Shown: piece by piece, positions 373 through 52,954 of the stretch
How the letters are laid out: each line of letters opens with the position of its first letter
Numbering within the stretch: position 1 is the stretch's first letter
Origin: Trileptium ribeirensis
Taxonomy: Eukaryota > Nematoda > Enoplea > Enoplida > Thoracostomopsidae
Direction of reading: 5' to 3'
Assembly: GCA_030248225.1 (NCBI GenBank)
Contig: JASANE010018609.1
Location: 1 to 64,000 of the forward strand
Length of the DNA stretch: 64,000 nt
Program-made: the position numbers and the translations under genes
The notes under the pieces: generated by a model
Seen by the model: only the letters and a program-made list of their open reading frames with translations
Databases searched by the model: none
What the model was told of the DNA's origin: nothing

Positions 373-3300
373 ATGACATCACAACAAAATCACGCCTCAG
401 TACCTTGCAACGGGGCTTCACAATCTCAAGGGACCCCACCTTCTGTCTTCTTAGGTGGGACAGTTGGCGGCCGAGCTACACCTGTAAACTCAAAATCACT
501 TCTATCAAAAACTACATCTCGCATTGGATGCTGGAACACACGAACCCTAACTACGGATGAGGCTCAAATTGCTCTCGTAACTGAAGCCATTCGCCACGAT
601 TTAGACATCCTAATGTTGTCCGAAACTCGCTGGACTGGTTCCGGGTCTGTGTATATCGATAATGGGCACGGGCAAAGGAGACTCTTTCTTTACTCGGGTG
701 GTGGTAAACATTTTGCTGGTGTTGGTTTTTTGCTGAGTCCCAAAGCAACGAATGCTCTCATTGCTTTCCATCCCGTGAGCGACCGGATTGCATATGCAGA
801 GTTCCGCAACAAACCTTTTTCTGTATTCGCGGTTTCTGTGTACTGTCCGACTGATTCGTCCAGTAATGCAGAAAAAGATGCTTTCTATGACACTCTCGGT
901 TTAACGCTAGAATCCTTGCCAAAAGATTCACTTCTGCTAGTAGCTGGTGACTTTAACGCCCAATGCAATGCAGATCCATCGGCATGGCGAGGGACTATCG
1001 GTAAATATGCATGTGGCAAACTAACCGATAATGGGCTGCGTTTGATGAGTTTTTCGTCTTCACATAACCTCTGCGTCACCAACACATATTTCCGTCATCG
1101 AAAATGTCATCAACTAACCTGGCGCTCAAACGATGGACAAACGGCAAATCAGATTGATTACGTGTTGATAAACAAACGTTTTCGCAATGCCGTCCTCGAT
1201 ACACGAGTCTACAGGGGCGCTGATGTCTACAGTGACCACTATCTTGTTATCACCAAAGTCCGACTTCGCTTGAAAACGAAACGCCCATCCAGGCCCGACA
1301 ACAAAATAGACGTGTCTCGTCTACAAGACCCAACTCTAGCAGAGCGATTCGCCGTCAACATACAAAATCGTTTCGCCGCTCTTGACAGATCCGACAATGT
1401 CGAAGATAACTGGCGTGGCTTTTCAGAAACTGTCAACGATGCTGCAAAAGAAGTGATACCTACATCCAATCGCCGACGAGAGCCGTGGACTTCCGCAGAA
1501 ACGCTAAGTTTAATCGACGCAAAATTTCAAAAAGGGCCCGACTATAATCGTCTCAACCGAGCCGTTAAAGCTTCGATCATCAAAGACAAAGAAGCGTACT
1601 GGTCGAAATCTGCATCCGCTTTAGAAGCAGCTATGTATCACGGCGATTCACGGAAATTCTATTCTACACTGAATAAGCTGAGCAAGCGGAAAGCATCAAG
1701 CTGTTGCACGTTTATTCGAAACAGTTCCGGTACACTATGTCGCAACGACGAGGAAAACTTATCTTCATGGTCGCAGCATTTCGACAAGCTTCTAAACTGT
1801 CCTCCGCCACTAGCTACTGACAACGAACTGGAACGCCGCGTCCCTGCAGACGATCCCGAAATTAATACCGATCCTCCGACATTTGACGAAATTCGTACCA
1901 CAATAAAACGACTGAAATCCCATAAGTCGTCCGGTGGTGATGGTATAGCTCCTGAATATCTAAAGTACGGCGGAACTTCGATCGCCACTGAACTCCATAA
2001 CATCGTGTGCAACATATGGCAGCATGAATCAGCACCACAAGATTGGAAGGACTCAGTGATAATCCCACTTCATCAAAAGGGCGACAAAACACAGCCTTCG
2101 AATTACAGGGGAATATCTCTTCTTTCGATTCCGGGCAAAGTGTACACTGCCATCCTTCACAGTAGAATACAGGAGCACTACGAGCGTCAAATTCGTGACA
2201 ATCAGGGTGGATTTCGCAGGGGACGAGGCTGTTCGGAACAAATCTTTGTGGCCAGGCAGATAATCGAACACCGCCAGACTCACAACAAAGGTACGGTCCT
2301 TATGTTTGTAGACTTCAAAGCAGCTTTCGACTCGATTCACCGTGCGTCTATCTGGAAAATTCTTCTAGCCAGCGGCATACCCAAGAAGCTGGTACGGCTT
2401 ATCTCCGATCTCTACAGTGATGGCACCTGCTGCGTCCGTTCGGGTTCTCATACTTCGAACAAATTCACAGTAACAACAGGTGTGAGACAAGGTTGTATCC
2501 TGTCACCATCGCTATTCAACATGACAATTGATTGGGTAATGCGGCGAACTGTCCTAGATACAGACGGTGTTTTACTATCTGAGGAAGTAAAAATCAGCGA
2601 CGTCGATTATGCTGACGATCTTCTACTTCTTGCTGATTCTGAAAAGTCAGCACAAGACTTCATAACACGACTGGCACATCATGCTTCAATGGTGGGTCTA
2701 CGCATAAATACGGCGAAAACAAAAACAATGGCAGTCTGCCTCTCTGATGTGAACGTGTCTCTAGGCGGCGTTAACTTAGAACAAGTATCGCAATTCAAAT
2801 ATCTCGGAAGTACTCTCACTGAAACTGGAAAAGCCAGTGATGACATCAATAGTCGAATTGGCCGCGCATCCAGCGTCTTTCAAAACTTAATGCTACCTTT
2901 GTGGACAAGACCAGAGATCACCACAAAAACAAAGCTACGCGTGTATAACGCTGCTGTCAATTCAGTTATACTCTACGGCGCCGAATCCTGGCCGATGCTG
3001 GCAGCAGACGCCCACCGTCTGGAAGTGTTCCAAAACAGTTGTCTTCGGCGAATCCTCGGAATACGACTTATCGACAGGGTTCCCATCAACACACTACACC
3101 GGCTGGCCAACAACCAGTTATCAATTGAGTCAGAAATCCGTAAACGTCGATTGAAGCTCTTTGGTCACGTCGCTCGTATGCATCATTCGAGAAGCGCGCG
3201 AGCGTCGCTTTTTCCTAATCGCCCTTTGACGTGGCACAAACGACAAGGTGGTCAAATCAAAACTTGGACAAAAACAATCAACGACGATCTGTCCCGAGTA

Positions 3301-3426
3301 CATCCACGTTATTGTGTGCAATCCGCGATCGAAGATGCTCAAAATCGTCCGATGTGGCGTGGTCTGATTCGTGATGTCATGATGGCGCCGAAAGCGACGG
3401 GACGGTCGATTCCATTCCAACGCTGA
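373..3426 (+). CDS. RTE-type LINE polyprotein: AP endonuclease plus reverse transcriptase
   Basis: This 1017-residue ORF encodes the single large protein of an RTE-clade non-LTR retrotransposon, which nicks target DNA and copies its RNA there. The apurinic-like endonuclease spans about residues 49-297: IGCWNTRTL (N55), SETRW (E84), GDFNAQ (D193, N195), IDYVLI and the terminal SDHY (D288, H289). A linker follows. The reverse transcriptase spans about 505-880: RGISLL, FRRGRG, VDFKAAFDSIHR (D647), GVRQGCILSPSLFN and the catalytic YADD at 746-749. The C-terminal part has FKYLGST, LYGAESW and LFGHVARM, typical of RTE/BovB-like proteins. There is no stop or frameshift and the length is normal for RTE, so this copy may be young. 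The start is the first Met; translation could begin differently. It runs opposite to the YPEL gene, probably inside one of its introns. Confidence 0.93.
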   Translation: MTSQQNHASVPCNGASQSQGTPPSVFLGGTVGGRATPVNSKSLLSKTTSRIGCWNTRTLTTDEAQIALVTEAIRHDLDILMLSETRWTGSGSVYIDNGHGQRRLFLYSGGGKHFAGVGFLLSPKATNALIAFHPVSDRIAYAEFRNKPFSVFAVSVYCPTDSSSNAEKDAFYDTLGLTLESLPKDSLLLVAGDFNAQCNADPSAWRGTIGKYACGKLTDNGLRLMSFSSSHNLCVTNTYFRHRKCHQLTWRSNDGQTANQIDYVLINKRFRNAVLDTRVYRGADVYSDHYLVITKVRLRLKTKRPSRPDNKIDVSRLQDPTLAERFAVNIQNRFAALDRSDNVEDNWRGFSETVNDAAKEVIPTSNRRREPWTSAETLSLIDAKFQKGPDYNRLNRAVKASIIKDKEAYWSKSASALEAAMYHGDSRKFYSTLNKLSKRKASSCCTFIRNSSGTLCRNDEENLSSWSQHFDKLLNCPPPLATDNELERRVPADDPEINTDPPTFDEIRTTIKRLKSHKSSGGDGIAPEYLKYGGTSIATELHNIVCNIWQHESAPQDWKDSVIIPLHQKGDKTQPSNYRGISLLSIPGKVYTAILHSRIQEHYERQIRDNQGGFRRGRGCSEQIFVARQIIEHRQTHNKGTVLMFVDFKAAFDSIHRASIWKILLASGIPKKLVRLISDLYSDGTCCVRSGSHTSNKFTVTTGVRQGCILSPSLFNMTIDWVMRRTVLDTDGVLLSEEVKISDVDYADDLLLLADSEKSAQDFITRLAHHASMVGLRINTAKTKTMAVCLSDVNVSLGGVNLEQVSQFKYLGSTLTETGKASDDINSRIGRASSVFQNLMLPLWTRPEITTKTKLRVYNAAVNSVILYGAESWPMLAADAHRLEVFQNSCLRRILGIRLIDRVPINTLHRLANNQLSIESEIRKRRLKLFGHVARMHHSRSARASLFPNRPLTWHKRQGGQIKTWTKTINDDLSRVHPRYCVQSAIEDAQNRPMWRGLIRDVMMAPKATGRSIPFQR

Positions 3427-16548: not shown

Positions 16549-18358
16549 AAATTAATTCCCAATGGTAAGCCAAATATAAATAATTCACGGGAACGTGAAC
16601 TATGATATATACATTCCAGATAAACATTTTACAACGTCGGCATTAGCTTAGACAAAAATCCTAAATCCAAATTTAGAATGAAATTAGAGAAAGAAAAGAC
16701 GCTTCTATCTTTGACGTTAGATCGAAGCCAAGACGGTTTTTGTATTGGTGATATGAGCGATGTAGGACAAAACCATGCCTGGCTATGCATCGTGTCACCA
16801 GAAAAAATTATTCAACATACATCAGAAACCTCATCGGGTTCAAAGATATCAACCCGACCTAACGAGACGAGACTGTAACCCGGATTCGACGCGATAACCG
16901 GCTATCAAAAATCGAAACTACTACTTGAAACTAACAACTAGGCTTCTATGTGCGGGTTTTCAACCAATTCTTATCGAACAACTGGCCCAGCTGCGCGAAG
17001 AGAATGTTACAACCGAATCGTTTGCAGGTGCTGCAGCTTCGAATATATGCTATTTAAATGTAGTTGGGACAGTTCATTATTCAGTGCGGTTAGCCTGAAG
17101 ATAAATATTAGGTACTCTTATCCGAACCCCCGAGCCTACCCGAAACCCAACAAATTTCATCCCAACCTGAACATGGCCCGAACCGATTACAAACATCCAA
17201 TATCCATACAGTGGTGTGTGTTTACAGTGAAATCTTTGTTTGACCCCAGCCGGATTGCTTACACTGAAACAAATGTAGATATAGCAAAAATGTCGAAATA
17301 GCAACTTTATTTAATTTTCATTCCTCAAAGCGATTTCGCTATAAACGTACTCTACGGTATATATTTAGCTTAAGTTACCGGATCCTGTGAATGCACAATA
17401 TACTGTACTCTGCGATAGAGAGTACACTGGACCCTGCGAATACACAGTACCACCTCCTGCCCCAAATTCTTCTGAACATTGGTTCGGTGCTGACCTACAA
17501 CTTGTGGTTTCCATGTTATAGGTGCGCGACCCAGACGACATGACCACTGACTCCGAGGCCTTCGATGCTGTCAGCGATCGCCGAGGCTATAAATATAGAG
17601 TGACGCAACCACCACGGCGGTTTGGAGCCCTTCGCAGGTTTTTATCCTGCAGGGCTCCGCCCGCTTAAAACTCCAACCTCAGTGTTTTGTTAGCCAGTTA
17701 TCAGGTCCCATTTGCACATTTATATTACACATCTCAAGCCAACCCCGCACACCCACTTTTCAGCTAATAGTCAGTTGATAAGTTCATTCTCAATCCTCCC
17801 TTGTCAGCTCATGATTACTAAGTTCATCTATATATTCAAAAGACTCAACCCTACAAGAGTTATCACCTCCGGCTCCGCTAGTCATGATATACCTACTGGT
17901 TCCGCTCGATCGTTAGGAACAAAAAACTAAACCCACAAAGACACCGTGTTTTCCGCGACCACATTAACAATCCCCAAATACGTATGCCGACTTGACTCGA
18001 GCCACAATAGTCGCAATTTCCTTCTCTTGTTCCCACAAAGTGTATACCAATAGTTGTCAAGGCAACAACGATTACTAGTTACAACGACACGATGACTAAT
18101 CAAATATGTACTGTATACCATTGTACGAAATATCCCATACGCACACGGAAAACAACCAAGCACCCCATATCTGAACTCTACATTCATTTGTTTTTCCTCA
18201 AACGTGGTCATTTTCTGATGTACTAGTTAGTTACTTGCCCAGTGAAAACGGACCGACTCCGGCTAATCTGCGGCGCTTTAATGACTATTAATTACAAGCT
18301 GGTTCTAAATTGGAATTTCGTGTGCCTTCTCCTTAAAAAACACCATAATAAAAATAAT
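16549..18358. other. Non-coding interval; no gene recognised
   Basis: Several short open frames (for example 16678-16878 and 16948-17301 on +) show no known family and no splice context. A region at 17100-17190 is rich in CCGAAC/CCCGAA motifs. A diverged short duplication around tgtactctgcgatagag lies near 17400. Confidence 0.45.
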
Positions 18359-21300
18359 ACGCCGGCAATGCTTTAATAAGCAACACAATGAGACACTTCC
18401 CTGCACTCACATAGAGATCCGTGTTTGATGACGCGAGCGTTTCCAGCCTGACCCTCCATTTTTTGGGGGGTGTGTGGAGGATCGAGATGCACAGACCCAT
18501 AGTTTCTTGGGGAAGGGTAGCTGGAGCCCCAACCCAAAAAACCAATCCATACGCCGGCAATGCTTTAATAAGCAACACAATGAGACACTTCCCTGCACTC
18601 ACATAGAGATCCGTGTTTGATGACGCGAGCGTTTTCAGCCTGACCCTCCATTTTTTGGGGGGTGTGTGGAGGATCGAGATGCACAAACCCATCGTTTCTT
18701 GGGGAAGGGTAGCTGGAGCCCCAACCCAAAAAAAAACAATCCATACGCCGGCAATGCTTTAATAAGCAACACAATGAGACACTTCCCTGCACTCACATAG
18801 AGATCCGTGTTTGATGACGCGAGCGTTTTCAGCCTGACCCTCCATTTTTTGGGGAGTGTGTGGAGGATCGAGATGCACAGACCCATAGTTTCTTGGGGAA
18901 GGGTAGCTGGAGCCCCAACCCAAAAAAACCAATCCATACGCCGGCAATGCTTTAATAAGCAACACAATGAGACACTTCCCTGCACTCACATAGAGATCCA
19001 TGTTTGATGACGCGAGCGTTTTCAGCCTGACCCTCCATTTTTTGGGGGGTGTGTGGAGGATCGAGATGCACAGACCCATAGTTTCTTGGGGAAGGGTAGC
19101 TGGAGCCCCAACCCAAAAAAACCAATCCATACGCCGGCAATGCTTTAATAAGCAATACAATGAGACACTTCCCTGCACTCACATAGAGATCCGTGTTTGA
19201 TGACGCGAGCGTTTTCAGCCTGACCCTCCATTTTTTGGGGGGTGTGTGGAGGATCGAGACGCACAGACCCATAGTTTCTTGGGGAAGGGTAGCTGGAGCC
19301 CCACCCCAAAAAAACCAATCCATACGCCGGCAATGCTTTAATAAGCAACACAATGAGACACTTCCCTGCACTCACATAGAGATCCGTGTTTGATGACGCG
19401 AGCGTTTTCAGCCTGACCCTCCATTTTTTGGGGGTGTGTGGAGGATCGAGATGCACAGACCCATAGTTTCTTGGGGAAGGGTAGCTGGAGCCCCAACCCA
19501 AAAAAACCAATCCATACGCCGGCAATGCTTTAATAAGCAACACAATGAGACACTTCCCTGCACTCACATAGAGATCCGTGTTTGACGACGCGAGCGTTTT
19601 CAGCCTGACCCTCCATTTTTTGGGGGGTGTGTGGAGGATCGAGATGCACAGACCCATAGTTTCTTGGGGAAGGGTAGCTGGAGCCCCAACCCAAAAAAAC
19701 CAATCCATATGCCGGCAATGCTTTAATAAGCAACACAATGAGACACTTCCCTGCACTCACATAGAGATCCGTGTTTGATGACGCGAGCGTTTTCAGCCTG
19801 ACCCTCCATTTTTTGGGGGGTGTGTGGAGGATCGAGATGCACATACCCATAGTTTCTTGGGGAAGGGTAGCTGGTGCCCCATCCCAAAAAAACCAATCCA
19901 TATGCCGGCAATGCTTTAATAAGCAACACAATGAGACACTTCCCTGCACTCACATAGAGATCCGTGTTTGATGACGCGAGCGTCTTCAGCCTGACCCTCC
20001 ATTTTTTGGGGGGTGTGTGGAGGATCGAGATGCACAGACCCATAGTTTCTTGGGGAAGGGTAGCGGGAGCCCCAATCCAAAAAAACCAATCCATACGCCG
20101 GCAATGCTTTAATAAGCAATACAATGAGACACTTCCCTGCACTCACATAGAGATCCGTGTTTGATGACGCGAGCGTTTTCAGCCTGACCCTCCATTTTTT
20201 GGGGGGTGTGTGGAGGATCGAGACGCACAGACCCATAGTTTCTTGGGGAAGGGTAGCTGGAGCCCCACCCCAAAAAAACCAATCCATACGCCGGCAATGC
20301 TTTAATAAGCAACACAATGAGACACTTCCCTGCACTCACATAGAGATCCGTGTTTGATGACGCGAGCGTTTTCAGCCTGACCCTCCATTTTTTGGGGGTG
20401 TGTGGAGGATCGAGATGCACAGACCCATAGTTTCTTGGGGAAGGGTAGCTGGAGCCCCAACCCAAAAAACCAATCCATACGCCGGCAATGCTTTAATAAG
20501 CAACACAATGAGACACTTCCCTGCACTCACATAGAGATCCGTGTTTGATGACGCGAGCGTTTTCAGCCTGACCCTCCATTTTTTGGGGGGTCTGTGGAGG
20601 ATCGAGATGCACAGACCCATAGTTTCTTGGGGAAGGGTAGCTGGAGCCCCAACCCAAAAAAACCAATCCATACGCCGGCAATGCTTTAATAAGCAACACA
20701 ATGAGACACTTCCCTGCACTGACATAGAGATCCGTGTTTGATGACGCGAGCGTGTTCAGCCTGACCCTCCATTTTTGGGGGATGTGTGGAGGATCGAGAT
20801 GCACAGACCCATAGTTTCTCGGGGAAGGGTAGCTGGAGCCCCAATCCAAAAAAAACCAATCCATACGCCGGCAATGCTTTAATAAGCAACACAATGAGAC
20901 ACTTCCCTGCACTCACATAGAGATCCGTGTTTGATGACGCGAGCGTTTTCAGCCTGACCCTCCATTTTTTGGGGGGTGTGTGGAGGATCGAGATGCACAG
21001 ACCCATAGTTTCTTGGGGAAGGGTAGCTGGAGCCCCACCCCAAAAAAACCAATCCATACGTCGGCAATGCTTTAATAAGCAACACAATGAGACACTTCCC
21101 TGCACTCACATAGAGATCCGTGTTTGATGACGCGAGCGTTTTCAGCCTGACCCTCCATTTTTTGGGGGGTGTGTGGAGGATCGAGATGCACAGACAGACC
21201 CATAGTTTCTTGGGGAAGGGTAGCTGGAGCCCCAACCCAAAAAAACCAATCCATACGCCGGCAATGCTTTAATAAGCAACACAATGAGACACTTCCCTGC

Positions 21301-22825
21301 ACTCACATAGAGATCCGTGTTTGATGACGCGAGCGTTTTCAGCCTGACCCTCCATTTTTTGGGGATGTGTGGAGGATCGAGATGCACAGACCCATAGTTT
21401 CTTGGGGAAGGGTAGCTGGAGCCCCACCCCAAAAAAACCAATCCATACGCCGGCAATGCTTTAATAAGCAACACAATGAGACACTTCCCTGCACTCACAT
21501 AGAGATCCGTGTTTGATGACGCGAGCGTTTTCAGCCTGACCCTCCATTTTTTGGGGGGTGTGTGGAGGATCGAGATGCACAGACCCATAGTTTCTTGGGG
21601 AAGGGTAGCTGGAGCCCCAACCCAAAAAAACCAATCCATACGCCGGCAATGCTTTAATAAGCAACACAATGAGACACTTCCCTGCACTCACATAGAGATC
21701 CGTGTTTGATGACGCGAGCGTTTCCAGCCTGACCCTCCATTTTTTGGGGGGTGTGTGGAGGATCGAGATGCACAGACCCATAGTTTCTTGGGGAAGGGTA
21801 GCTGGAGCCCCAACCCAAAAAAACCAATCCATACGCCGGCAATGCTTTAATAAGCAACACAATGAGACACTTCCCTGCACTCACATAGAGATCCGTGTTT
21901 GATGACGCGAGCGTTTTCAGCCTGACCCTCCATTTTTTGGGGGCTGTGTGGAGGATCGAGATGCACAGACCCATAGTTTCTTGGGGAAGGGTAGCTGGAG
22001 CCCCAACCCAAAAAAACCAATCCATACGCCGGCAATGCTTTAATAAGCAACACAATGAGACACTTCCCTGCACTCACATAGAGATCCGTGTTTGATGACG
22101 CGAGCGTTTCCAGCCTGACCCTCCATTTTTTGGGGGGTGTGTGGAGGATCGAGATGCACAGACCCATAGTTTCTTGGGGAAGGGTAGCTGGAGCCCCAAC
22201 CCAAAAAACCAATCCATACGCCGGCAATGCTTTAATAAGCAACACAATGAGACACTTCCCTGCACTCACATAGAGATCCGTGTTTGATGACGCGAGCGTT
22301 TCCAGCCTGACCCTCCATTTTTTGGGGGGTGTGTGGAGGATCGAGATGCACAGACCCATAGTTTCTTGGGGAAGGGTAGCTGGAGCCCCAACCCAAAAAA
22401 CCAATCCATACGCCGGCAATGCTTTAATAAGCAACACAATGAGACACTTCCCTGCACTCACATAGAGATCCGTGTTTGATGACGCGAGCGTTTCCAGCCT
22501 GACCCTCCATTTTTTGGGGGGTGTGTGGAAGATCGAGATGCACAGACCCATAGTTTCTTGGGGAAGGGTAGCTGGAGCCCCAACCCAAAAAAACCAATCC
22601 ATACGCCGGCAATGCTTTAATAAGCAACACAATGAGACACTTCCCTGCACTCACATAGAGATCCGTGTTTGATGACGCGAGCGTTTCCAGCCTGACCCTC
22701 CATTTTTTGGGGGGTGTGTGGAGGATCGAGATGCACAAACCCATAGTTTCTTGGGGAAGGGTAGCTGGAGCCCCAACCCAAAAAAAACAATCCATACGCC
22801 GGCAATGCTTTAATAAGCAATACAA
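18359..22825. repeat. Satellite array, about 23 units of 193 bp
   Basis: The unit starts gccggcaatgctttaataag and includes gacacttccctgcactcac, gtgtttgatgacgcgagcg, tttttggggggtgtgtgg, gatgcacagacccatag and ggtagctggagccccaaccc. The first units start at 18361, 18553 and 18747. Small length changes sit in the G-run, the A-run and one CAGA duplication near 21190. Open frames on both strands repeat every 193 bp and shift frame between units, so they are not genes. A diverged, once-only version of this unit occurs inside the element at 23173-23519. Confidence 0.97.
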
Positions 22826-43264: not shown

Positions 43265-43670
43265 TTGTCAATCACTTGCGAGGCGAAATAAATATCTTTC
43301 TACCATTCAATAAATCGAATAGTTGTTAATACAAAATAACGCCCACCGAAACAGAACTAATTAGTCTCTTAAACATAAAATGTACACAAACAGTATTTTA
43401 AGCAACGCCCAATAATGGGAACTACGAAAGTTGGTACCGAAGGAACTCACCTTAGTAATTTCGACAGTGAATGCTAAGAAGAAGAGTCATGAAGCTTCCA
43501 AGACATCAATCAGCAAGCGGGACCACTGTAGCGCTAATTCGGAATCACCATCTCATTTCGATAATGGCGCTCAATGCAAAAACAAGTAGCATCGGCTGTT
43601 TACCCACTACCCGCGAGCTCCCATATTTGAGGTTTCATTCAGGTGGCACGGATACTCGACGCAGCTATGT
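43265..43670. other. Non-coding interval; nothing recognised
   Basis: Short unique-looking stretch leading into the 81-bp array. The 72-codon frame at 43471-43689 runs into the array and is not convincing. Confidence 0.4.
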
Positions 43671-46600
43671 GGGCTGTATTATTATCTAGTAACTCGCAGC
43701 GAGAAGAAACGAGGTGAAATTTATTAGTCTAGCGAAGTGGGAAGTGCGAGTGGGCTGTATTATTATCTAGTAACTCGCAGCGAGAAGAAACAATGTGAAA
43801 TTTATTAGTCTAGCGAAGTGGGAAGTACGAGTGGGCTGTATTATTAGCTAGTAACTCGCAGCGAGAAGAAACGAGGTGAAATTTATTAGTCTAGCGAGGT
43901 TGGAAGTGTATTATTAGCTAGTAACTCGCAGCGAGAAGAAACGAGGTGAAATTTGTTATTCTAGCGAAGTAGGAAGTACGAATGGGCTGTATTATTAGCT
44001 AGTAACTAGCAGCGATAAGAAACGAGGTGAAATTTATTAGTCTAGCGAAGTGGGAAGTAGGAGTGGGCTGTATTATTATCTAGTAACTCGCAGCGAGAAG
44101 AAACGATGTTCAATTTATTAGTCTAGCGAAGTGGGAAGTACGAGTGGGCTGCATTATTAGCTAGTAACTCGCAGCGAGAAGAAAAGAGGTGAAATTTATT
44201 AGTCTAGCGAAGTGGAAAGTACGAGTGGGCTGTATTATTATCTAGTAACTCGCAGCGAGAAGAAACGAGGTGAAATTTATTAGTCTAGCGAAGTGGAAAG
44301 TACGAGTGGGCTGTATTATTAGCTAGTAACTCGCAGCGAGAAGAAAGGAGATGAAATTTATTAGTCTAGCGAAGTGGAAAGTACGAGTGGGCTGTATATA
44401 TTATTAGCTAGTAACTCGCAGCGAGACGAAACGATGTGAAATTTATTAGTCTAGCGAAGTAGGAAATACGAGTGGGCTGTATTATTAGCTAGTAACTCGC
44501 AGCGAGAAGAAACGAGGTGAAATTTATTATTCTAGCGAAGTACGAGTGGGCTGTAGTATTATCTAGTAACTCGCAGCGAGAAGAAACGAGGTGAAATTTA
44601 TTAGTCTAGCGAAGTGGGAAGTACGAGTGGGCTGTATTATTATCTAGTAACTCGAGCGAGAAGAAACGATGTTCAATTTATTAGTCTAGCGAAATGGGAA
44701 GTACGAGTGGGCTGCATTATTAGCTAGTAACTCGCAGCGAGAAGAAAATAGGTGAAATTTATTAGTCTAGCGAAGCGGAAAGTACGAGTGGGCTATATTA
44801 TTAGCTAGTAACTCGCAGCGAGAAGAAAAGAGGTGAAATTTATTAGTCTAGCGAAGTGGGATGTACGAGTGGGCTGTATTATTAGCTAGTAACTCGCAGC
44901 GAGAAGAAACGAGGTGAAATTTATTAGTATAGCGAAGTGGGAAGTACGAGTGGGCTGCATTATTAGCTAGTAACTCGCAGCGAGAAGAAAAAAGGTGAAA
45001 TTTATTAGTCTAGCGAAGCGGAAAGTACGAGTGTGCTGTATTATAATGTAGTAACTCGCAGCGAGAAGAAACGAGGTGAAATTTATTAGTCTAGCGAAGT
45101 GGAAAGTACGAGTGGGCTGTATTATTAGCTAGTAACTCGCAGCGAGAAGAAAGGAGGTGAAATTTATTAGTCTAGCGAAGTGGGAAGTACGAGTGGGCTG
45201 TATTATTAGCTAGTAACTCGCAGCGAGAAGAAAAAAGGTGAAATTTATTAGTCTAGCGAAGCGGAAAGTACGAGTGGGCTGCATTATTAGCTAGTAACTC
45301 GCAGCGAGAAGAAAAGAGGTGAAATTTATTAGTCTAGCGAAGTGGGAAGTACGAGTGGGCTGTATTATTAGCTAGTAACTCGCAGCGAGAAGAAACGAGG
45401 TGAAATTTATTAGTATAGCGAAGTGGGAAGTACGAGTGGGCTGCATTATTAGCTAGTAACTCGCAGCGAGAAGAAAAGAGGTGAAATTTATTAGTCTAGC
45501 GAAGCGGAAAGTACGAGTGGGCTGTATTATAATGTAGTAACTCGCAGCGAGAAGAAACGAGGTGAAATTTATTAGTCTAGCGAAGTAGGAAATACGAGTG
45601 GGCTGTATTATTAGCTAGTAACTCGCAGCGAGAAGAAACGAGGTGAAATTTATTATTCTAGCGAAGTACGAGTGGGCTGTAGTATTATCTAGTAACTCGC
45701 AGCGAGAAGAAACGAGGTGAAATTTATTAGTCTAGCGAAGTGGGAAGTACGAGTGGGCTGTATTATTATCTAGTAACTCGAGCGAGAAGAAACGATGTTC
45801 AATTTATTAGTCTAGCGAAATGGGAAGTACGAGTGGGCTGTATTATTAGCTAGTAACTCGCAGCGAGAAGAAAATAGGTGAAATTTATTAGTCTAGCGAA
45901 GCGGAAAGTACGAGTGGGCTGCATTATTATCTAGTAACTCGCAGCGAGAAGAAAAGAGGTGAAATTTATTAGTCTAGCGAAGTGGGAAGTACGAGTGGGC
46001 TGTATTATTAGCTAGTAACTCGCAGCGAGAAGACAGGAGGTGAAAATTATTAGAAAAGCGAAGTGAGAGGTAAGAGGGGGCTGGATTATTAGATAGTAAC
46101 TCGCAGCGAGAAGAGAAAAGAGGTGAAATTTATTAGTCTAGCGAAGCTGGAAAGTACGAGTGTGCTGTATTATAATGTAGTAACTCGCAGCGAGAAGAAA
46201 CGAGGTGAAATTTATTAGTCTAGCGAAGTGGAAAGTACGAGTGGGCTGTAAAAAAATTATTAGCTAGTAACTCGCAGCGAGAAGAAAGGAAACACCGGTG
46301 AAATTTATTAGTCTAGCGAAGTGGGAAGTACGAGTGGGCTGTATTATTATCTAGTAACTCGCAGCGAGAAGAAACGAGGTGAAATTTATTAGTCTAGCGA
46401 AGTGGAAAGTACGAGTGGGCTGTATTATTAGCTAGTAACTCGCAGCGAGAAGAAAGGAGGTGAAATTTATTAGTCTAGCGAAGTGGGAAGTACGAGTGGG
46501 CTGTATTATTAGCTAGTAACTCGCAGCGAGAAGAAACGAGGTGAAATTTATTAGTCTAGCGAAGTGGGAAGTACGAGTGGGCTGCATTATTAGCTAGTAA

Positions 46601-47510
46601 CTCGCAGCGAGAAGAAAAGAGGTGAAATTTATTAGTCTAGCGAAGTGGGAAGTACGAGTGGGCTGCATTATTAGCTAGTAACTCGCAGCGAGAAGAAACG
46701 AGGTGAAATTTATTAGTCTAGCGAAGTGGGAAGTACGAGTGGGCTGTATTATTATCTAGTAACTCGCAGCGAGAAGAAACGAGGTGAAATTTATTAGTCT
46801 AGCGAAGTGGGAAGTACGAGTGGGCTGTATTATTATCTAGTAACTCGCAGCGAGAAGAAACGAGGTGAAATTTATTAGTCTAGCGAAGTGGGAAGTACGA
46901 GTGGGCTGTATTATTAGCTAGTAACTCGCAGCGAGAAGAAACGAGGTGAAATTTATTAGTCTAGCGAAGTAAAAAAAACAAAAAAAAAAACGGGAAGTAC
47001 GAGTGGGCTGTATTATTATATAGTAACTCGCAGCGAGAAGAAACGAGGTGAAATTTATTAGTCTAGCGAAGTGGGAAGTAGGAGTGGGCTGTATTATTAT
47101 CTAGTAACTCGCAGCGAGAAAAAAACGATGCAATTTATTAGTCTAGCGAAGTGGGAATACGAGTGGGCTACATTATTACTAGTAACTCGCAGCGAGAAGA
47201 AAAGAGGTGAAATTTATTAGTCTAGCGAAGCGGAAAGTACGAGTGGGCTGTATTATTATCTAGTGACTCGCAGCGAGAAGAAACGAGGTGAAATTTATTA
47301 GTCTAGCGAAGTGGGAAGTACGAGTGGGCTGTATTATTATCTAGTGACTCGCAGCGAGAAGAAACGAGGTGAATTTTATTAGTCTAGCGAAGTGGGAAGT
47401 ACGAGTGGGTTGTATTATTATCTAGTAACTCGCAGCGAGAAGAAACAGCAGGTGAGACAATTTAAAAAATTAGTATAGCGAACTGGGGAAGTACGAGTGG
47501 GCCCGCATTA
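43671..47510. repeat. Satellite-like array, about 46 units of 81 bp
   Basis: Units start gggctgtattattagctag and contain ctcgcagcgag (a small palindrome), gaagaaacgaggtgaaattt and attagtctagcgaagtggg. Starts at 43671, 43752 and 43833 give the 81-bp period. Blocks of variants recur together, for example the gatgttcaattt unit. Several units contain odd A-rich or other insertions (about 46246, 46290, 46969-46991), which look more like base-calling or polishing errors than evolution. The LTR element lies just beyond the array. Confidence 0.95.
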
Positions 47511-47564
47511 TCAGCTAGAAACCAGAAAACAAAAAAAAAAAAAAAAAAAAAACAAAACAGCATA

Positions 47565-47847
47565 TGTAATTAGTTTATAATCACTTATCATCAATTGTCA
47601 ATGATTTTACTTTCAATTACCTTCAGTCAGGCTTCTCTTCAATCGGCACGCTGTTGTGGTCGTTGAGTCTTTGGGCGTCGATTGAGGAATCATCTATCGT
47701 CACGACGTACGGCAGTTGATCTAGTGAACAATGACTGGTAGTCGAGATCACGAACGCCTTATATAGTCTATTGTCTTTGCTAACGTATATAATTTGCATA
47801 GGCAAATTGTTAGCATTAATTTGCATAAGCAAATTATTAGCATTACA
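47565..47847 (-). repeat. 3' LTR of the Gypsy element
   Basis: 283 bp, starting TGTAAT and ending ATTACA (6-bp inverted ends). It holds a minus-strand TATATAAG at about 47757-47765 and two ATGCAAAT octamers (complement at 47792-47799 and 47819-47826). A 69-codon open frame inside the LTR is present in both copies but has no known relative. Confidence 0.96.
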
Positions 47848-47858
47848 GAACCCCCATT
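47848..47858 (-). promoter_or_regulatory. Candidate polypurine tract
   Basis: Immediately before the 3' LTR the minus strand reads AATGGGGGTTC. The G-run is the likely primer for plus-strand synthesis. It is short and ends in pyrimidines, so the assignment rests on position. Confidence 0.45.
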
Positions 47859-47861
47859 GTT

Positions 47862-50800
47862 TTAAGCGGAGCGCCGACCGAGCACAACAGCCTGAGGTGC
47901 AAAACGAACTTTTTTACTGTTGGTGCAGGTGACGGCTGACCCCAGATGAGGCTTCAAATGCTGAGACGCTATGTCGAAGGCGCGCCGCAGGTCCGATCGC
48001 TTGACCGTTGGATTAGGTTCAAAATGACGAATCGATTGGAACTGGATGAAAGCAAGGCGTCCCGTACCGAAAAATTTTACCGCGAGTGAGTTATGTGGTT
48101 GTTTCAGAGACGATAGTTCCGTTTTTGCTGACGAGGTAACGAGTGCAGGCCACCATGGCCAATTCCGCATTTTCGCCAGAATCACCGTGCCTTCTTTTAT
48201 CTGTTCGTCGTGACCGATATTAATGTCGCTCTGCTCACGGAGAGTGTCGCTCGAAGAAGTTGAGGGTGCGGATGATGTGTTTGTGCCATCTTGATCAATT
48301 AGAAAGGCAGGTTTAATGCGGTCGAGGCTTACTCGATCATCACCGTTTTGACATTTGACGACAACGGTTTTATCATCCCGATCTAGTACCTCGTACGGAC
48401 CGTGATAACGCGGTTGTAGAGTGTTTTTAATGGAGTCGTCACGTATCCATACGTGTTTGGCGATTTTAATGTTCGTCGGCACGTAACATTGTTTGTTGTG
48501 GTGACGCTCAGGAGCATTAAGACGGCGGATGCCGGAAAATAGTCGTATTTTGAAATCGTGTTCTGACGCTAACTGTTTAGTCGACGTTGGCGTAAAATAA
48601 TGGTGTGGCAAATCAATACCGGATCCAAACACCATTTCACATGGAGCAAAACCTTTATCGTTGAGGCTCGTGCGAATTCCAAGCAAAACGAGAGGAAGTG
48701 AGGCTGTCCATGTAGCGGAAGAACAATGAGCACGCAATCCGTTTTTGAGCGTACGATGAAAACGTTCAACAGCGCCGTTGCATGCTGGATGATATGCTGT
48801 CGTTCGACGGCGTTCAATTCCTAGTTGCTCCATGAGGGATGACCATAACGCAGATTCGAACTGCGTGCCGCGATCGGATATCAGAACACGCGGAACGCCG
48901 AATCTGCTTATCCAACCGGAGATGAGCGCCTCTGCCACTGACTCAGTAGTAATGTCGGAGATGGGAATTGCTTCGGGCCATCTAGTAAATCGATCGATAA
49001 TGGTTACCAAGTAACGCTTGTCATTCGAAGACGGCAACGGACCAACAATGTCAATGTGCACCGTGTGGAAACGTCCAGTTGTTGGGATTGTTCCGACTGC
49101 AGCCTTTGTGTGTCGTACCACTTTGCTCCGTTGGCATTCGATACACTCACGGCACCATGTCTTGACGTCACGATTCATGTTTGGCCAAATGTAGCTGTGG
49201 GAGATGCTGCTGAGAGTTGCGCGCGAACCAAGATGGGCGAGGTTGTGCACCGATTTGAAAATGTTGAACCGCATTTCCGTGGGAACGTACGGGCGCAGTT
49301 GCGAAGTGGAAGCATCACAGTAAACCGTCTTGCCGTCGATAACGAAACGCTTGATTGGCAAATTGGTTGCTTGTATAAACCGTATGAGGGTAGAATCAGC
49401 GGCTTGAGCATCAGCCAGTTGACTGTCGAACGCAATTGAAATAGTGCACACAGGACGAGAGAGAGCGTCAGCCACGACATTGTCGGCGCCTGCAACGTGC
49501 TCGATGTTGCAACCGAACTCTGAGATGAAGGACAACCATCGAGACTGCTGTGCGGAAGGATTCGCCATCGAGAGAGCGTTCACGAGTGGCTTGTGGTCGG
49601 TGCGCACGGTGAAATCGGAGCCGAGAAGCCACGGGAAGTGCTTTAGGGCTTTGTAGATTGCCAGAAGCTCCCGGTCGAATGCGGATTTGCGGGATTCCAG
49701 CGGTGTTAGCTTCTCCGAGTAAAATGCTAACGGCTCTGCGTTGCCATCGACCACTTGGTTGAGGACAGCGCCCACGGCGGCGCCGGACGCATCAGTAACC
49801 AGTTGAAGTCGACCTGCGGGGTTGGGGAACGAGAGCTTCACCGCGGCAGCAACGGCCGATTTGAGTGCTTCGAATGCCTGGCGGCTGTCGTCCGACCAGG
49901 TTAAACTAAAGTTGCCTTTACCAGCTTTACCCCGTATCAGGTCGGTGAGAGGAGCGGCGATCCTTGAAAATCCCGGAATGAATCGGTGGTAGAAGCCGGC
50001 CATGCCCAGGAAACCGCGCAGGAGCTTCGTTGTTTCCGGGCACGGATAGTCGAGGATGACCTTGACCTTGGACGGTATAGGCCGGACGCCGTTTGTATCG
50101 ACCTCTACCCCGACGAAGTTGACTTTGGGGCTGAACAAAACGCACTTGTCCGGGCGAAGGCGGAGACCGTGGTTGTTGAGGCGGGTGAGGAGCGTTTTGA
50201 GGTGCTGCAGATGCTCGTCGTTTGAGCGGCTGGCCACCAGGATGTCGTCCAGATAGACCTTGACAAACGGTAAATCACCCAGGACCGAGTCCATAAGCCG
50301 CTGGAAGGTTTGAGCGGCGTTGCGAAAACCGAAAAACATCCGCCTGAACAGGAACAGGCCGAACGGAGTTGTGACGGCCGTCTTAGGTTGGTCCTGAACC
50401 GCCACAGGAATCTGCGTATAGGCGCAGACGAGGTCCAGCTTCGAGAAGACAGTCGCCCCGTGAAAATCGCCGGAGAGGTCCGTGAGGTTTGGCATCGGAT
50501 AACGATCGGGAACCGTTTGACGATTGAGCTTTCGGTAGTCACCAGTCGGGCGGTAGGGAGTTTTGGGATCCGCCTTTGGGGCCATGTGTAAAGGTGACGC
50601 GTAAGGGGATTCACCACGATAAACGATGCCTTGCTGCTCCCACTCGGAGAAAACCCGCTTTGCGATCGCCAGCTTTTGTCCATCAAGGCGACGTGGGCGG
50701 TCGAAGCACGGCGGTCCCGTGGTAACGATGTGGTGTTCGATGCCGTGGAGAGCCGGCGAGAAGGCATCGATCGGCTCGAAGATGCTCGGGAATCCGCGGA

Positions 50801-51356
50801 GGAGCTGCTTGATCCTGGTTGTCTCAGCAGGTATGTCGACTCGAACGCCCGATGGTATCGATTCGGGCTTCGTGGTTGTCGCGCAACAGGCCGCAGGAGG
50901 CTTTGCGGTTGCTGCCGGGACCAGGCGGTTGTTGACGCAGTCGACCGCGAACCCGTAGTGCCGGAGGAAATCCTGGCCGAGGATCGGATGGGCGACGTTT
51001 GCGACGTAGAAAGTCCAGCTGAATTGCTGATCAAAGCCCGCAAGCCGGAAAGTTAAGTTGCACGTACCTTTGATCTCGACCGGCGTACCGTTGACTGCGG
51101 TGGCGTCGACCGGGTGTTTGTGGAAGGTAGTGGTGTTCGGCGCTTGTAAGGGGTGCAGGAACGAAAGCGAACTCCCGCTATCGGCAATGAAGCGCCCGAC
51201 CGAAGTTGCATCGATGAACACAGCGTTGACAGCCCCACCGCTTGCTGGCACGGCGGTGGGGGCTACTCGTTTCCCGGACCGCTGGCGGGGCCGGACTCCG
51301 CGTTGAATGTGCAGAATTGGGGCCCTTGACATCGTTGTGCATTGGCCCCGAACTTC
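47862..51356 (-). CDS. pol: Gypsy Pol: protease, reverse transcriptase, RNase H, integrase and C-terminal PWWP
   Basis: Numbering is from the first Met (51332; 1156 residues); the frame opens at 51356. Protease: DSGSS at 51-55 and HPILGQDFL. Reverse transcriptase: about 225-400, with catalytic YLDD at 360-363. RNase H: TDAS at 513-516, the E in DREL, TDHKPL and VVADALSR. Integrase: zinc finger H696, H700, C730, C733; catalytic D761, D820 and E856 with 35 residues between the last two; GPY/F module at about 972-1010 ([10 protein letters not shown]). After a Ser/Thr-rich linker, residues 1046-1107 form a PWWP domain: [18 protein letters not shown] then [12 protein letters not shown]. By comparison with LEDGF, the three methyl-lysine cage positions are filled (M1055, W1061, F1087). 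Integrase thus carries its own probable chromatin reader. Pol is in the -1 frame relative to gag. Confidence 0.96.
51263..51356 (-). promoter_or_regulatory. gag-pol overlap (-1 frame)
   Basis: Gag ends at TAG (51263-51265). The pol frame is open from after a TGA at 51357-51359, giving about 94 nt of overlap. Pol is one base back relative to gag, as in -1 frameshifting elements. I find no classical X-XXY-YYZ heptamer in register; the nearest are G/C-runs around CAAGGGCCCCAA. The first pol ATG (51332) lies inside the overlap, so internal initiation is another option. Confidence 0.75.
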
Positions 51357-52672
51357 TCATGATACCAGCACACCCCCGGCGTTCGTTGACGTGATTGAGA
51401 CCGTGGCCGGCGTCGTTGATCACCGTGGCGGCCACCGCGATAGTTGTTGTTCGCTCGTTCTGGCGACCTCCGATTGCTTGAGCCGCTGCGGTAGGACAGC
51501 CTGCGGACAGCTGCTGCCAGGTCGCTGATTTGCTGCTGGATCGAGGCCTGCCAGGGATCTGTCGTCGTCGGTGTTGAGCCTGAACGAGGAGCTCGATTGA
51601 CCTGGCTGACCAACGCCGGATCGGCCATCTCCATCATGGTGTCGGCGATGCGAGCCAACTGCTCGAGGGAGACGTTGTCCATTGAAACCAGCGTCAGCCG
51701 GATTTGCTCGGGGAGGATCTCGAGGAAGCGCAGGCGGACGAGATCCTGACTATTCGGAGCCAGCTCGAGGAGTTCGCGGAGGGCGCTCGATGGTTTGCGT
51801 CCCTTGAGGTCCTTCTCGGCGAGGAGCTTGCGGAGCCGCCGGTTGTCGCTGTCGGCGTAGTAGTTGATCAGCGTCCGCTTGAGTTCGCCATAGCCCGCGT
51901 TGAGGTCGACCCCCGACTCGTGGACGAGCGCGTTGTCGATCACCCGAAGGACGTTTCGCTTCTTGAGGTCGTCGTCGATTGAACCGAGGATTTGTTCGAC
52001 CTGGTTGAACCACGACTGCGGTGTCTTCGGGTTGAACTGCGGCAACTGATAGAATTGACCTGCGGTAGCGCTCGGCTGTGGTCGTTCGATTTGACTTGGT
52101 CCAGCGTTGTTTTGAAACTGAACTATGGCCAGCTGACTGTGTGCCAATTGCAGGACATCAGGCCCGAATGGAGTGAGCTCCGTGATCATCTCGTCCCGCG
52201 TCGGTGGCATAACGAACGCCTTGTCACTTGCCTTGAGGAGTTGTAGCATCCCGGCCAGCGTGTCCTTGGTTTGTTGCGACAGATTGACCGGCCCTGGATT
52301 ACGCTCGACGCCGCCGATGACCAGCAGGACCCGTAGGCAGGTTGCCTGTCGTCGACCGAGACCTTGACCCGAGCAACCAGGGAGATGAAAACCGATGAAA
52401 CTGAGGAACCCCGGATTGACTGTACCTGTGACCAGCATTCTCGACCGTCGCCACTTGCTTTGACCGGAGCCCTTGAATCGACCATTTGATCCGGAAACAA
52501 CAGCGACCGTTGACCAGGGGGCTTCGACTTGAGGAACCTCGGGTACCGCGACCGTGTCCAGGACCGTCGAGGTCCGGACCATAGGAGACCTGAGAACCGC
52601 CAGTGCCAGCGCGAAAAGGACCGGCAGGACCCGAAAGAGGGAAGGCCGGCGTGCCCGCGTCGGGTTCACCAT
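51263..52672 (-). CDS. gag: Gypsy Gag with N-terminal hydrophobic leader and 2A-like motif
   Basis: I choose the ATG at 52672, the first codon after the 5' LTR (469 residues); in-frame Mets at 52702 and 52699 lie inside the LTR. Numbering from 52702: an Arg-rich start is followed by a hydrophobic stretch at about 22-38 ([13 protein letters not shown]), like a signal peptide or anchor. At 123-138 comes [16 protein letters not shown], matching the 2A ribosome-skipping consensus except for Gly in place of Asp. The Gag core follows (WFNQVEQIL, then [12 protein letters not shown] and [14 protein letters not shown]), as in CsRn1-type Gags. An Arg-rich region and a finger C445-x2-H448-x9-C458-x5-C464 end the protein. 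The last spacing is wider than I remember for CsRn1. If the 2A motif works, core Gag would start with Pro138. Confidence 0.94.
52656..52671 (-). promoter_or_regulatory. Primer binding site, tRNA-Trp type
   Basis: One base inside the 5' LTR boundary the minus strand reads TGGTGAACCCGACGCG. Eukaryotic tRNA-Trp 3' ends predict TGGTGACCCCGACGTG, so 14 of 16 positions match. The CsRn1 clade is reported to use tRNA-Trp. The site overlaps the gag start codon (A-TGG). Confidence 0.8.
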
Positions 52673-52954
52673 TGTAATTAGTTTATAATCACTTATCATC
52701 AATTGTCAATGATTTTACTTTCAATTACCTTCAGTCAGGCTTCTCTTCAATCGGCACGCTGTTGTGGTCGTTGAGTCTTTGGGCGTCGATTGAGGAATCA
52801 TCTATCGTCACGACGTACGGCAGTTGATCAAGTGAATAATGACTGGTAGTCGAGATCACGAACGCCTTATATAGTCTATTGTCTTTGCTAACGTATATAA
52901 TTTGCATAGGCAAATTGTTAGCATTAATTTGCATATCAAATTATTAGCATTACA
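52673..52954 (-). repeat. 5' LTR of the Gypsy element
   Basis: 282 bp. On the minus strand U3 begins TGTAATGCTAATAATTTG and carries a direct duplication with the POU-type octamer ATGCAAAT twice (52927-52934 and 52900-52907). These are followed by a TATATAAG box at about 52865-52873. Transcription would start roughly 30 bp later. It differs from the 3' LTR at about 52798, 52808 and 52936. Confidence 0.95.

Follow-up and report, generated by a model that had tools for sequence, protein, structure and literature searches.

In chromoviruses, a chromodomain at the end of the integrase chooses the target site. For HIV-1, the reader is a PWWP domain on a host protein, LEDGF/p75 (PSIP1), which binds integrase through a separate integrase-binding domain (IBD), and joining another reader domain to the LEDGF IBD redirects HIV-1 integration (PMC8149907). 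CsRn1-like Ty3/Gypsy elements (CsRn1, PwRn1, and AgCR) carry the Gag motif CX2HX9CX3C, called imperfect in three of the authors' own elements, and the study that defines the motif reports no chromodomain in its elements (PMC2582038). Here we describe an apparently intact and young long terminal repeat (LTR) retrotransposon at 47565-52954, read on the minus strand, in a 64,000-nucleotide stretch of the nematode Trileptium ribeirensis (GenBank assembly GCA_030248225.1, contig JASANE010018609.1, positions 1 to 64,000 of the forward strand; hereafter the window). Its Pol polyprotein matches the PWWP family at the integrase end.

We propose that an ancestor of a CsRn1-like Ty3/Gypsy lineage acquired a PWWP domain, whose source was presumably a chromatin protein of the cell, and that this domain was joined past the GPY/F module of integrase through a flexible linker. 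The domain would bind nucleosomes by a methyl-lysine cage and by contact with their DNA, allowing the integrase to tether itself to H3K36-methylated, transcribed chromatin with no LEDGF-like host adaptor, acting as the chromodomain does in chromoviruses and aimed at a different chromatin state. We give this reading a probability of roughly 0.55. The step from domain to H3K36-methyl mark is suggested by homology, and that from mark to insertion site by analogy with the LEDGF/HIV-1 reader swaps and with chromodomain integrases.

The Pol polyprotein ends in a predicted PWWP fold

Searching the whole Pol protein against Pfam returned PF00855 (PWWP) at E 6.6e-11 and 43.0 bits, with a core at residues 1048-1110, and the last 159 residues alone matched at E 3.1e-12 and 47.3 bits; the curated cutoff is 25.6 bits. 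This match is far beyond chance and is not a chance motif. The PWWP motif starts at residue 1059, and the domain with its C-terminal helix occupies 47952..48197 on the minus strand (about residues 1046-1127; Pfam, structure model, fold matches, and family alignment). As the original prediction had it, the domain lies at the integrase end, in frame, before the pol stop and between the LTRs; the span claimed there, 47862-48200, corresponds to about residues 1045-1156 and takes in the PWWP domain, the C-terminal helix, and a low-confidence tail. A chromodomain identity was rejected, with no chromodomain family among the 12 Pfam matches on Pol at E up to 1.

Searched by sequence, the Protein Data Bank (PDB) gave 49 matches with E no higher than 1. 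Almost all are proteins with a PWWP domain, LEDGF being the best (2e-6), and two are interferon gamma entries (E 0.35 and 0.38). The AlphaFold2 model has strands as well as a helix spanning residues 1113-1126, and PWWP structures were the best matches when the model was compared with known structures. The model thus assigns the C-terminal domain of Pol a PWWP fold, a beta barrel followed by a C-terminal helix. Two of the checks initially suggested, a profile search against Pfam PWWP and a structure prediction, both came out in favor of the domain.

The domain is common to ten related proteins

Relatives were collected in two protein searches, each of which scored about 8000 candidates: one with the Pol protein (best 120 of 2606 matches) and one with residues 640-1129 of the relative P0005 (best 120 of 2390). 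Eight of the first eleven Pol matches carried PWWP (P0001-P0005, P0007, P0008, and P0011), and the domain was absent from P0006, P0009, P0010, and the remaining 109. The second search added the PWWP-bearing P0122 and P0125, giving 10 of 213 distinct proteins among the matches listed. Because these lists hold the best-scoring matches, there may be more PWWP-bearing members, or other Gypsy lineages that captured the domain independently. PF00855 scores of the ten relatives ranged from 26.9 to 53.6 bits against the cutoff of 25.6, with P0122 barely above it. A profile built from all eleven domains recovered exactly the ten relatives among the 213 proteins (next best E 0.62), and profiles built with one member left out recovered each of the ten at E 2.6e-15 or better. 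P0011 also has a UPF0029 domain (PF01205, 89.5 bits) at residues 112-216 of its Pol, upstream of the reverse transcriptase (RT).

A protein search on Pol residues 1020-1156 alone scored 381 candidates, and not one reached E 0.01; relatives do exist, so this is no evidence of absence. The first scan of genome contigs and both scans of viral contigs yielded no DNA relatives, and the phage records yielded a single record with 8% of the query covered. A second scan of genome contigs, run with an integrase alignment, gave six loci (L001-L006) in bacterial bins, which are probably contamination from animal hosts; none of their 79 open reading frame (ORF) pieces of at least 80 residues matched the PWWP family profile (best E 1.6).

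These results bear on whether the domain is confined to this copy, having arisen by chance fusion, by read-through into a host exon, or as an error of assembly. The divergence of the domain among members (mean pairwise identity 31% in the eleven-member family) and the short contigs on which most relatives lie lend this idea a little support. Against it, ten relatives have the same architecture and fall in one clade with the window element, each is still recovered when left out of the profile, and the window copy has an open frame with intact LTRs and target-site duplication. We therefore rejected a chance or private fusion, which we consider extremely improbable; the possibility that the domain was private to this copy, named at the outset as one that would count against the idea, did not materialize.

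As to the cellular source gene, the searches rank different PWWP families first. The single window sequence is most like LEDGF/HDGF, whereas NSD2, DNMT3B, and NSD3 score highest with the family profile, which matches many PWWP families about equally, MSH6 and NSD included.

PWWP capture seems old and was followed by one apparent loss

Two trees were built. The first covered RT through GPY/F, without the tail, in 25 rows, 15 of them CsRn1-like proteins without PWWP picked by hand from the lists; the second covered the integrase in 32 rows, 20 of them without PWWP and picked by hand, besides P0006. A 100/100 branch in the first tree sets nine PWWP proteins and P0006 apart from the other rows, and one in the second tree (100/100) does so for eleven PWWP proteins and P0006. 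With the root placed by midpoint, the PWWP trait needs two changes in both trees. P0006 (1002 aa) is a member of the PWWP clade that has no PWWP domain, still ending in KRVTF. As it is sister to P0003 (99/99 in the first tree and 96/89 in the integrase tree) and is nested deeper in the integrase tree (86/83 and 90/91), one gain and one loss is the simplest account, two independent gains being a less simple alternative. End branches within the clade (0.28-1.04 in the first tree) are comparable with those of the sampled relatives outside it, and the capture of PWWP therefore seems old.

A candidate methyl-lysine cage is complete in most members

The cage of PSIP1/LEDGF consists of M15, Y18, W21, and F44; the M15A and Y18A substitutions lose specificity, and W21A and F44A abolish binding, perhaps via folding (PMC3663649). 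In the alignment, these positions fall on M1055, W1058, W1061, and F1087 of the window Pol. The three counterparts first noticed (M1055, W1061, and F1087) were borne out, with the sequence as stated, and W1058 is a fourth, matching Y18. Judged from its sequence, the window domain has a candidate methyl-lysine cage at all four positions.

Cage composition was counted over the window and the ten relatives. Position 1 is F in 8 sequences and M, Q, and H in one each; position 2 is W in 4, Y in 3, and F, M, Q, and H in one each; position 3 is W in all 11; position 4 is F in 9 and L in 2. All four positions are aromatic or Met in 8 of the 11 sequences, namely the window and 7 relatives.

Three observations weigh against self-tethering to H3K36-methylated chromatin. 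The cage is altered in the other three members, P0003 (Q, Q), P0122 (H, H, L), and P0125 (L), suggesting relaxed or changed specificity in some branches. The LEDGF PWWP binds an isolated H3K36me3 peptide very weakly (dissociation constant 17 mM) and needs the DNA of the nucleosome (PMC3663649), and the mark can therefore not be read off the cage. In addition, P0006 does without the domain, which must be dispensable at least there.

The first two points also bear on the main rival explanation, in which the PWWP domain would be a nucleosome or DNA anchor that acts via a basic surface, recognizes another mark or none, and is not aimed at transcribed genes. Most of the nucleosome affinity of the LEDGF PWWP comes from DNA contact, and another PWWP domain binds H4K20me (PMC3663649); the roughly equal fit of the family profile to many PWWP families, including MSH6 and NSD, agrees with this explanation, as do the altered cages. 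A plausible full cage has nevertheless been kept in the window and 7 relatives over long branches, and we regard such an anchor as possible but rather unlikely.

The domain seems to lie between the GPY/F module and a remnant tail

The PWWP domain follows the integrase GPY/F module. Most relatives without PWWP end 60-110 residues past GPY, many with tails like TRSGRRVHFP and some longer or truncated, whereas the nine PWWP proteins that were measured extend 165-248 residues past it. Within their last 80 residues, 149 of all 213 proteins, among them 8 of the 10 PWWP relatives, have a loose RVx[FW] pattern. For a loose SGR-like pattern, the counts are 151 of the 213 and 1 of the 10. These lengths and motifs suggest that PWWP sits past the GPY/F module and before what is left of the original tail, which is presumably homologous to the tails of the other proteins. 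In the window Pol, the C-terminal motif KKVRF (47901..47915, minus strand; residues 1140-1144) resembles the [KR]xVxF end of many relatives. The RVx[FW] motif resembles RVxF, a motif that docks onto protein phosphatase 1.

The reader follows GPY/F as the chromodomain does in chromoviruses; the parallel with chromodomains was pointed out originally. Pol is a polyprotein, and PWWP might conceivably act ahead of integration or once it is complete, serving another step such as nuclear retention, silencing evasion, or protein contact while leaving the insertion site unaffected; P0006 manages without the domain, which would fit such a role. We think this improbable, since the domain is attached to the integrase end, where target-choosing domains such as the chromodomain sit in other elements.

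Organization of the element

The 3' LTR (47565..47847, 283 bp) and the 5' LTR (52673..52954, 282 bp), both on the minus strand, differ by three mismatches and one indel (98.6% identity, blastn), and the target-site duplication TATG directly flanks both. One base past the 5' LTR, TGGTGAACCCGACGCGG... (52652..52671, minus strand) is a putative primer-binding site, so labeled from its position and TGG start; it resembles a tRNA-Trp primer-binding site. AATGGGGGTTC lies immediately upstream of the 3' LTR.

The gag ORF (51263..52672, minus strand) opens with an ATG that is the first codon past the 5' LTR; this first ATG (52670-52672) comprises the three bases adjoining the LTR and therefore overlaps the putative primer-binding site. 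Gag has a weak match to DUF7041 (25.2 bits, under the Pfam cutoff of 28). A 2A-like peptide, GGVERNPGP, lies within the gag ORF (52286-52363, minus strand), past a hydrophobic N-terminal stretch and with NPGP at residue 135; it has G for the D of the 2A consensus DxExNPGP and could release an N-terminal Gag product by ribosome skipping.

The pol ORF (47862..51332, minus strand; 1156 aa, no internal stop) is in the -1 frame relative to gag, and the two open frames overlap by 94 nt. It encodes, all on the minus strand, the RT (50100..50579; residues 252-411; Pfam RVT_1, 8.5e-29), the RNase H (RH) region (49515..49898; residues 479-606; RT_RNaseH_2 and RT_RNaseH), the zinc-binding domain of integrase (IN; 49122..49286; residues 683-737; Integrase_H2C2, 8.5e-18), its catalytic core (48786..49067; residues 756-849; rve, 1.1e-14), and the GPY/F module (48303..48431; about residues 968-1010, GPY at 978). 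AlphaFold2 modeled the GPY/F module as a small barrel, with block means of the predicted local distance difference test (pLDDT) of 84-90. The LTRs, the target-site duplication, and the order RT-RH-IN in Pfam matches place the element in Ty3/Gypsy.

The element resembles CsRn1, PwRn1, and AgCR in the order protease (PR)-RT-RH-IN, the GPY/F module, the 4-bp target-site duplication, the Gag CX2HX9C motif, and a TGG-starting putative primer-binding site beside the LTR. It differs in the last Gag spacing (CX2HX9CX5C against X3), and, unlike it, the CsRn1-like relatives in our sample lack PWWP. Membership in the CsRn1-like group is likely, not proven, because CsRn1 is not in our trees, the Gag spacing differs, and the resemblance to a tRNA-Trp site is tentative; the trees were built from rows other than named CsRn1 references, and the CsRn1-like label of the relatives is likewise provisional.

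No further copies of the element were found in the window by blastn with the LTR, gag, or the 3' part of pol. The element has a G+C content of 53.9% against 42.6% for the window, a difference that may stem from codon use or from a recent move out of another genome. The CpG observed/expected ratio of the window is 1.03, and CpG depletion is therefore absent from it. Directly next to the 3' end of the element, an 81-bp unit is repeated about 47 times in tandem (43669-47522), and the window holds more large tandem arrays, for example 23 copies of 193 bp at 18357-22825. At 373-3426 on the plus strand lies a non-LTR retrotransposon ORF of 1017 aa that encodes an endonuclease and a reverse transcriptase. 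Rfam (gathering scores) and ARAGORN gave no matches on the window.

Discussion

The window element, like chromoviruses, has a Royal-family reader placed behind GPY/F in a Gypsy integrase, a resemblance in how the parts would work; it differs in that the reader is PWWP and the predicted mark is another. With LEDGF and HIV-1 integrase, it shares a PWWP domain with the same cage positions linked to integrase, but here the domain is inside Pol. Engineered reader-IBD fusions also join a chosen reader to the integration machinery; they are artificial and act in trans, whereas the window element is a natural fusion in cis.

Among accessory domains of retrotransposon polyproteins, one review mentions the chromodomain and a DnaQ-like exonuclease, and PWWP is absent from its main text (PMC6338049). 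A literature search under the term PWWP, whose coverage extends to few subscription journals and to no bioRxiv preprints, made no LTR retrotransposon with PWWP evident from titles and abstract starts among the matches listed. PF00855 is already marked automatically on these proteins in databases; the domain is therefore visible, though apparently undescribed in the literature searched.

Our analysis suggests that the lineage has, within its own Pol, the kind of tether that HIV takes from the host cell. We see about an even chance that the whole lineage has internalized the LEDGF principle, with its own H3K36-methyl reader and unaided insertion into transcribed chromatin, an aim opposite to that of heterochromatin-seeking chromoviruses. 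Reader-guided integration is known from chromodomain integrases and from retroviruses, which use the readers of their hosts; a lineage with PWWP built into its Pol, if true, would add a third natural case, predicted to read a different mark. Its members, with an intact cage, an altered cage, or no domain, would form a natural comparison set for how a reader domain sets the landing site, and could be set beside engineered reader tethers as their natural equivalent.
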